Source: a bacterium (GTDB taxonomy: Bacteria; Patescibacteriota; Minisyncoccia; Phycocordibacterales; UBA9973). Taken from it: 32,583 nt of DNA. The stretch is from NCBI GenBank assembly GCA_021824345.1, contig JAKAKW010000008.1, positions 1 to 32,583 of the forward strand, given 5' to 3'. The position numbers and the translations under genes are program-made. The notes beneath the pieces were generated by a model. It did no database searches and was not told the origin of the DNA. It was given only the letters and a program-made list of their open reading frames with translations. Positions within the stretch are counted from its first letter, which is position 1, and the number at the start of each line of letters is the position of its first letter. This document shows positions 29,272 to 31,422 of this stretch, piece after piece.

Positions 29272-31422
29272 ATGCGAAAGCGTTTCCTTATGCGAAAAAA
29301 TGAAGCGGAAAACAGAATAAAAAAACTGCGCGAAGAAATCGCGCGGGAGCGCATCCGGTATCATGAAAAGAACGATCCTGGGACTACTGACGAAGTATAT
29401 GACTCCCTTTCCCGAGAGCTGAAGGAATTGCTCCGAAAGCATCCGGAATTTTCAGATCCGAACGCTCCAGAAAACCGGATAGCCGGGAAAGCGCTTGATA
29501 AATTTCAAAAAGTGCGGCACTCATCTCCCATGCTTTCCATCGGGAACGTTTTTTCCCGGGAGGAGTTTGAAGCCTGGGAGAAGCGCAACCTTAAATTGCT
29601 CGGTGCGAATGCTTCCCCTGAATATTTCTGCGAGGTGAAATTCGACGGTTTGGCAGTCACCTTGGTTTACGAAAACGGAGAGTTTAAAAAAGGAGCTACC
29701 CGCGGGGACGGATACATAGGAGAGGACATAACGGAAAATCTCCGGATGATTTATACCATCCCCTTGAGGCTGAAAACACCTTTTCCTTCGTACATTGAAG
29801 TTCGCGGAGAAGCGATAATGAAAAAAAACGTGCTGGCGGAACTGAATAGAAAAAACGAAAAAGAAGGGAAGCCTCGTTTTGCCAATTCCCGAAACGCCGC
29901 GGCGGGAAGCCTCCGTCAATTAGATCCCGAGCTTACCCGGAGGCGGCATCTGGATTTTTTCGCTTATGAGATATCAAGCATTGAAGGAAAAGAATGGCAA
30001 AAACTAATTGCCAAGCATGCTTCCAAGCATGAGTTGCTTGATAAGCTGGGCTTTTCCGTGGACAAGCATTCGGGACTGGCTTCTTCCGCGGATCAGGTTT
30101 TTGAATTCATAGAAAAAATCAGCAAAGTAAGAGAAAGTTTGCCGTTTAATATCGACGGAGCGGTGATGAATGTAAATGATACGGCCGTTTTTAACGAACT
30201 CGGAGTGGCCGGAAAGGATCCGCGCGGAATTATCGCCTTCAAATACCCGGCGGAGCGGGCTACCACGGTAGTGAAAGAAATCCGGGTAAACGTGGGGCGC
30301 ACGGGGGCACTGACCCCGCTCGCCGTTTTTCGTCCGACTCTTGTAGCCGGCTCTACCGTTTCCAAGGCGACCTTGCACAATGCCAACCAGATTGAAAAGC
30401 TGGATATACGAATAGGGGACACGGTAGTTATAGAAAAAGCGGGCGACGTGATACCGAAAGTGGTTGAGTCCTTAAAAAAAATGCGCTCAGGCCAGGAAAA
30501 GAAATTCAAAATGCCGGAGAAATGCCCGGTGTGCGGAGGAAAAGTTGAGCGAAGACAGATCGGGAGCGCGAAGAGCGCTCGCTCAAAAGGTCCTCGGTTC
30601 TCCTCGCCCGCTATTCGAAAAAAGACGAGCAGCGGGCTCGGCCAGACCATTTCTCGCGAGCCTCTTCGCGCTCCCGATCAAGATGCGTCCGTCTCCTTTT
30701 ACTGCGTGAATCCAAAATGCCCCGCCAAGAACGAGCGGTATTTGGAGCATTTCGTTTCCGCTTTTGAGATATACGAGCTGGGGCCGAAAATTCTGCGCCG
30801 TTTCAAGGACGAGGGCCTTATTTCCGACGCGGCGGATATTTTCACTTTGGAGAAAGAGGATATTGCCGGCCTGGAACGCTTCGGAGAAAAATCCGCTGAG
30901 AATATAATAAAGGAAATTGATATGAAGAAGAAAGTTCCGCTTTGGCGCCTGCTTTGGGCGCTCGGAATCCTGCATGTGGGAGAGGAAACCGCCCGGGACC
31001 TTGCCGGACATTTCGGCTCCTTGGAAAATATCATAAAAGCGAACATTGAAGATCTAAACGCTCTGGAAAACGTCGGCGGCGCGGTGTCCGACAGCATTTA
31101 TGATTTCTTCCGCGACAAGGACAACTTGCGCTTCATAAAAAAGCTGGAACATAACGGCGTGCGCGTTGAGAAAGGGGAGAAGCAAGCAAAAGGGAAGTTT
31201 TCCGGAATGACTTTCGTGCTTACCGGAACGCTTTCCGGCATGCAGAGAGAGGAAGCGAAGGGAAAAATACTGGCTCTTGGCGGAAAAGTTTCCGAATCGG
31301 TTTCAAAAAAGACCTCGTATGTGGTGGCCGGAGAGGATCCCGGGTCCAAGCTGGAAAAGGCCGGGAAGCTCGGGGTGAAAGTGCTTGATGAGAATGAATT
31401 TATGAAGATTTTGCAAGGTTGA
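29272..31422 (+). CDS. ligA: NAD-dependent DNA ligase with an in-frame insertion in the Cys4 zinc finger
   Basis: [39 protein letters not shown]...[10 protein letters not shown], HhH repeats, C-terminal [54 protein letters not shown]. Confidence 0.95.
30558..30679. mobile_element. Palindromic (MITE/RPE-like) element inserted in frame within ligA
   Basis: Perfect 18-bp terminal inverted repeats GATCGGGAGCGCGAAGAG / CTCTTCGCGCTCCCGATC, extending to 24 bp with one bulge (GCTCGC/GCGAGC); interrupts the space between the two Cys pairs. Confidence 0.75.

Follow-up and report, generated by a model that had tools for sequence, protein, structure and literature searches.

Most reports of palindromic elements that contribute to protein-coding sequence have so far concerned Rickettsia and Wolbachia. 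Rickettsia palindromic elements (RPE; Ogata et al. 2000, 2002) are 105-146 bp long, form a stem-loop and comprise several families per genus, and nearly half of them lie in frame inside genes, where they are presumed to be translated (PMC2229807, PMC10969869). An RPE-containing guanylate kinase was found to be translated and active (PMC2229807). REPs, another type of bacterial palindrome, measure 20-40 bp and are, in the account given in PMC3733652, mostly extragenic, most of them carrying a GTAG or CGTC tag. Here we analyzed a palindrome in the ligA gene of a 32,583-nucleotide stretch of DNA, hereafter the window. A previous sequence-only reading had compared this insert with RPE, and the comparison is supported by a multi-copy core with 62 in-frame copies, found in housekeeping genes. 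The insert is very probably a copy of a non-autonomous mobile palindromic element, hereafter named family A, that would be translated as an extra peptide loop.

The interrupted gene is single-copy, being the sole LigA match in the window's own genome. A domain profile search matched the expected LigA domains, and the protein looks intact except at the zinc finger, where the match to the Pfam ligase model is limited to residues 417-431, i.e., the first half of the finger, up to the insert. The palindrome stands between CPVC (C418, C421) and YCVNPKC (C478, C483), within the reading frame and with no stop codon (Table 1). That the Cys4 finger holds an in-frame, stop-free insert, as read from the letters alone, was thus borne out in the 716-codon gene, and the hairpin is far above chance: the ligA loop has an inverted-repeat score of 18, whereas 200 shuffles gave 10 at most, and hairpins scoring at least 16 number 71 in the window's genome versus 0 in the block-shuffled genome. 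The perfect inverted repeat with a bulged extension was likewise retrieved, at 30558-30575 and 30662-30679; these 18-bp arms are 86 nt apart and are followed, after one bulged C, by six more pairs (GCTCGC/GCGAGC). An AlphaFold2 prediction of LigA made from a three-row alignment was too poor to be used (mean pLDDT 51.5). Elsewhere in the window, the 3' end of an ORF for a LAGLIDADG-type endonuclease (31685-32398, Pfam PF14528) runs into the start of a tRNA-Ser(GGA) gene (32376-32465), and this pair comes just after a short stretch that resembles a HicB-type antitoxin in one frame.

Table 1. Position of ligA, its zinc-finger cysteine pairs and the parts of the palindromic insert in the window
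Feature	Position	Strand	Remarks
ligA, NAD-dependent DNA ligase	29272-31422	+	716 aa; adenylation, OB, C4 zinc finger, HhH and BRCT parts present
CPVC	30523-30534	+	first zinc-finger Cys pair (C418, C421)
In-frame palindromic element	30558-30679	+	family A copy, 122 bp
Outer left arm	30558-30575	+	perfect 18 bp; sequence locus-specific
Inner left arm	30577-30582	+	GCTCGC, after single bulged C at 30576
Conserved core	30588-30650	+	AGGTCCTCGGTTCTCC...GGCTCGGCCAGACCAT, common to all family A copies, with variable central stem-loop
Inner right arm	30656-30661	+	GCGAGC
Outer right arm	30662-30679	+	perfect complement of 30558-30575
CVNPKC	30703-30720	+	second zinc-finger Cys pair (C478, C483)

The element had at first been defined by its 18-bp terminal repeats. 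The arms are real, but their sequence is locus-specific; what is conserved is the core AGGTCCTCGGTTCTCC-stem-loop-GGCCAGACCAT (30588-30650) that they enclose. A DNA search of the window's own genome gave partial matches at other places, and the 832,874 bases of this genome were searched for both core halves. At least eight family A copies are present, so that the insert is not single-copy sequence, an outcome that the sequence-only reading had allowed for. The core AGGTCCTCGGTTCTCCTCGCC...GCTCGGCCAGACCAT lies in frame in uvrC, ileS and pheT, the pheT copy being on the opposite strand, and also occurs in pcrA and at two intergenic places, with one half copy in addition (C3:79234). The outer arms differ from place to place, yet the two arms of any one copy are complementary. 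A covariance model of the core matched 60 of 80 congeneric genomes, with a total of 226 matches. When the model was run against 238 genomes drawn from the class, seven were positive: the window's own genome, one congener, two members of the family that belong to a sister genus, and three less closely related genomes. Family A is rare outside the genus (5 of the 236 class genomes that do not belong to it). The distant copies also have real arms, and one of them is in frame in ileS. The element measures about 90-100 bp in most congeners and about 120 bp in the window's genome, with arms of about 27 bp. Besides the zinc-finger insert, a further family A match was seen in the same LigA of a congener, near query residue 240 (L028, G007:C9:2267-2320).

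For counts at the level of single copies, 107 family A copies were collected with their flanks, and 62 of them are inside a long ORF that reads through the element. The genes concerned are ligA, polA, pcrA (at two sites), uvrA, uvrB, uvrC, recJ, rsmA, ileS, pheS, pheT, an iscS-like gene, rnr, cca, mnmA, tsaD, gatA, ychF and an smc-like gene; 16 ORFs were checked by NCBIfam, and the rest were named from motifs and orthologues. Genic copies occur in both orientations and mostly in three of the six frames. Relative to orthologues that lack the element, the net insertion is typically 60-105 nt, and it was a multiple of three in the ligA, uvrC, ileS, recJ, uvrA and uvrB comparisons. A few pheT comparisons gave other lengths and were set aside, as the subject sequence is diverged and possibly frame-shifted. 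An open frame was found in all 62 genic copies versus 35 of the 45 other copies (p=9e-5), a difference that partly follows from how genic copies were defined. A TAA beside the core is present in 5 of 62 genic copies and in 22 of 45 others (p=2e-6). Such avoidance of stops is what survivorship of translated insertions would predict. Since the genic copies lack stops and keep the frame, they are most likely translated. Next to one family A copy of the window's genome (145383-145498 on contig C10, L083), which lies just upstream of the gene, an FtsH ORF carries an apparent intein in its Walker A motif, with putative junctions GTGK-CVNGDTLIQ...FFNHN-TMLA.

We then compared the ligA loop across the genus, where its length ranges from 39 to 168 nt. 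A hairpin insert was present in 20 of the 29 congeners with a readable loop. In all 20 loops of at least 78 nt, an inverted repeat scored higher than in shuffled sequence (p<=0.005 in 17 of them and p 0.01-0.025 in the others), and this was true of none of the nine loops of 66 nt or less. Relatives do not, then, all share a conserved, non-palindromic loop at this place, as might have been the case: some congeners have a short one (L029, L033, L034; e.g., KVEKKELVAYYC). The inserts belong to mutually unrelated families, namely A forward, A reverse, 'TTPSPLLHKEG', 'GFTLPGV' and others. Mapped on the LigA tree, their distribution requires 17 changes against 18.4 in shuffles and does not track the phylogeny, and the well-supported sister species G007 and G008 have different inserts. 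Judged from these comparisons, the ligA loop is a hotspot that appears to have been repeatedly hit by several unrelated palindrome families. Family A copies were also found in several species in polA, rsmA, pcrA, uvrB, pheT and iscS, and gatA and iscS carry other palindromes at sites without family A. At one old rsmA site, a comparison of two copies (L228 and L253) is suggestive of the core having flipped between its arms. In ileS of two congeners (L118 in G026 and L119 in G004), an in-frame palindrome of a family named 'C', GGGGTCGCTGTCTCC...GCGAGACACCCC, with a branched fold, occupies the same loop as family A in the window's genome.

The behavior of the arms was assessed first in six ligA orthologues with family A in forward orientation. 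In these, 97.8% of cells were paired, and 13 of the 19 outer-helix pairs had changed on both sides, a result approached by no shuffle or slid register. Over the 107 copies, sequence conservation in the arms reaches only about 9 nt from the core and mostly falls to 0.1-0.5 bit from position 10 on, while complementarity remains between 0.5 and 0.85 as far as about position 27 before dropping to a background of 0.2-0.4. Between different genes, arm similarity does not exceed that of shuffled arms (0.477 vs 0.467), and it reaches 0.685 within the same gene and orientation. The arms are therefore fixed at each locus and inherited, and they remain paired while they change.

Mismatches within the arms give some clues as to how pairing is maintained. 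Read in the sense of the gene, they comprise 19 G.U and 36 A.C; read in the orientation of the element, 37 are A.C and 12 are G.T, so that wobble pairs would be on the complementary strand. Half of this asymmetry comes from three inherited positions (9-11), and elsewhere it is not significant. SbcD, the nuclease subunit of SbcCD, a complex that cuts hairpins, had no match in any of the 40 congeners searched versus 13 of 14 control genomes, and its absence may be one reason why palindromes are tolerated. DNA template switching can create, maintain and repair perfect hairpin stems (PMC8794818). Given this precedent, the lack of G.U enrichment, the pairing kept in intergenic copies and the result for SbcD, we infer that template switching during replication, and not selection for a structure in the mRNA, probably keeps the arms complementary. 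The strand asymmetry of the mismatches speaks against this, as pure template switching does not predict it.

The hairpin could instead be a functional structure of the ligA mRNA, such as a regulatory or processing signal, whose pairing is under selection. Strong compensatory changes in the arms, a stable fold and the recurrence of some hairpin in the ligA loop of 20 of 29 congeners would all fit. However, the same pairing is found in either orientation, in numerous unrelated genes and at intergenic places, nine congeners have no hairpin in ligA, and gene-sense G.U mismatches do not exceed A.C ones, which is the opposite of what selection on mRNA would produce. This explanation was set aside on the lack of G.U enrichment, and we consider it improbable. 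Alternatively, the insert might be skipped, by removal from the RNA or by ribosome bypass, as for byps elements or an intron, leaving a ligase without it. Known ribosomal bypass sites are flanked by long hairpins, and here the insert splits a metal-binding finger. Yet open frames, stop avoidance and net lengths in multiples of three, as seen in the genic copies examined, would be needless if the insert were skipped, and the unconstrained frame and stops expected of a programmed bypass element or intron were not what we found. An Rfam scan of seven stretches of the window's genome that lie outside the window and contain other copies (133,881 bases) gave nine matches, none of them at the element. 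Skipping thus seems very improbable. That LigA simply has a loop of variable length, or that the assembly is at fault, is left with hardly any probability: loops of different lengths do exist in the genus, but the core recurs elsewhere in this genome and in 60 of the 80 congeners, all long loops are palindromic and no short one is, and such an origin is contradicted by a multi-copy core.

How the element moves and where its arms come from can be read in more than one way. REPs are palindromic and multi-copy, and Y1 transposases scored above the family cut-off in 54 of the 80 congeners, often several per genome, which raises the possibility that the element is REP-like and is mobilized by a Y1 transposase of the RAYT/IS200 type. 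The presence of family A is nevertheless independent of that of Y1 genes (41/19 vs 14/6, Fisher p=1), the window's genome has no Y1 transposase, and in six Y1 loci that were fetched the A core is absent from the hairpins, one of these loci (L269) being flanked by a different hairpin. We therefore rejected this mobiliser for want of an association and hold such a relationship to be unlikely; with the Y1 association tested in 80 genomes, no transposase or other mobiliser was linked to family A. As to the arms, they could have arisen at insertion as inverted copies of the target, only the core being mobile and the flanking repeat being copied host sequence. They are unrelated between loci, yet complementary to about position 27 and at background thereafter. 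Copying from the target is favored because the net insertion is often about one arm short of the whole palindrome, and the ileS case is also suggestive. Conversely, in uvrA (net 84-87 nt) and recJ (net 105 nt) almost the whole of both arms is missing from empty orthologues, and a weak arm motif, GAAGTTACTTTTT, is common to many intergenic copies, as if borne by the element; these points favor arrival of the arms with the element. Loop variation between species is too large to decide the origin of the arms, and relatives with an empty site are too diverged to set boundaries, so no target-site duplication is definable. On balance, we regard target-copied arms as rather doubtful.

The reading that we prefer, family A as a mobile element translated where it lies in a gene, draws directly on the multi-copy core, the in-frame position in many genes, the recurrent presence and absence at orthologous sites, the avoidance of stops and the compensatory arms. 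Copy number, occurrence in either orientation and presence or absence between relatives suggest that the element is mobile and selfish. Family A, made of a conserved core and arms of about 27 bp, would insert at many places and in either orientation. In coding genes, the survivors would be frame-keeping, stop-free insertions in tolerant loops. A surviving genic element would then be translated as an added peptide loop that the enzyme presumably tolerates; in LigA, this loop would lie between the two cysteine pairs of the zinc finger. Copying between the arms by template switching during replication would keep them complementary. A bolder version, which we offer only tentatively, is that the mobile hairpins carry nothing but the core, that template switching builds or rebuilds the arms out of local DNA, so that a locus-specific inverted repeat is written around a fixed core upon insertion or replication, and that lineages without SbcCD accumulate such hairpins in essential genes.

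Other palindromes were noted in these genomes. The window's genome contains the further families B, C, D and E, likewise with shared cores and private arms. The core of family 'B', CTTTTCCGGGTACGGGATTTTT...AAAAATCCCTGAAGTT...CGAAACCCCCTCC, has private perfect arms at each place and is mostly intergenic (L059, L063, L082, L083, L049 and L050; G000:C2:43661, C4:24435, C10:134647, C10:144749, C13:8035 and C14:17374). A different short palindrome, GIAEGAPPYGGAPSAM, is in frame in an apparent lepA of the same genome (L041:5214-5261), and several palindromes GTGGGAGGCCTTGCCTCCCAC were seen there (within L038-L084, e.g., C4:40425-40520 of G000), sometimes as inverted pairs around a TGTGGTCTGGCAGGACAC-like spacer. 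In another congener (G076), the hairpin GCGGGTGATGGCGAAACTCC...GAGTGCGATCACCCGC stands beside a Y1 transposase (L269:793-881) and is a candidate REP partner of that enzyme. An orphan copy of it is present in the window's genome (L056, G000:C3:94068-94156), which is without a Y1 gene.

The system is dense and still turning over, in a genome-reduced group other than those in which coding palindromes were described, and orthologous presence/absence comparisons can be made by the dozen within a single genus. It offers a way to test how essential enzymes acquire peptide loops from selfish DNA, as well as whether arm covariation, usually taken as proof of RNA function, can stem from DNA replication alone. 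Such inserts can also introduce errors into gene annotation, trees and structure models for these organisms. LigA similarity to a 'Candidatus Parcubacteria' MAG, together with genome size, suggests that the genus belongs to Patescibacteria; a collection of named genomes yielded just two LigA loci, both distant. No description in Patescibacteria or Parcubacteria was found in the open literature, which is weak evidence of novelty as subscription journals were mostly outside the search.

Bacterial MITEs (ERIC, Correia, RUP) are short, non-autonomous and multi-copy and form stem-loops, as does family A. In contrast to them, family A has no terminal repeat sequence common to its copies, arms more than about 9 nt from the core being at chance similarity between loci, and no parent transposon was found. 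With REP/BIME sequences it shares the form of a multi-copy imperfect palindrome, in a genus where Y1 transposases are common; it differs from REPs in its greater length, its frequent location inside genes and its lack of association with Y1. Coding palindromes of nematomorph mitochondria are also perfect inverted repeats in translated genes, but their arms encode conserved native parts of the protein (PMC6649704), whereas family A is an added repeat element. Wolbachia palindromic repeats (Ogata 2005, as cited in PMC2229807) are described there as protein-coding palindromic repeats of a reduced genome, which family A resembles. The likeness is closest with RPE, which are also palindromes of about 100-150 bp, multi-copy, in several families and in frame in conserved genes. 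Family A differs from them in its bacterial group, in a conserved core flanked by locus-specific, compensating arms, in its two orientations, in many hits to DNA repair and translation genes, and in a LigA finger hit repeatedly by different families. By architecture and behavior, rather than by sequence comparison, RPE are the closest known kind, and family A works like them; what appears new here is the host group and the behavior of the arms.
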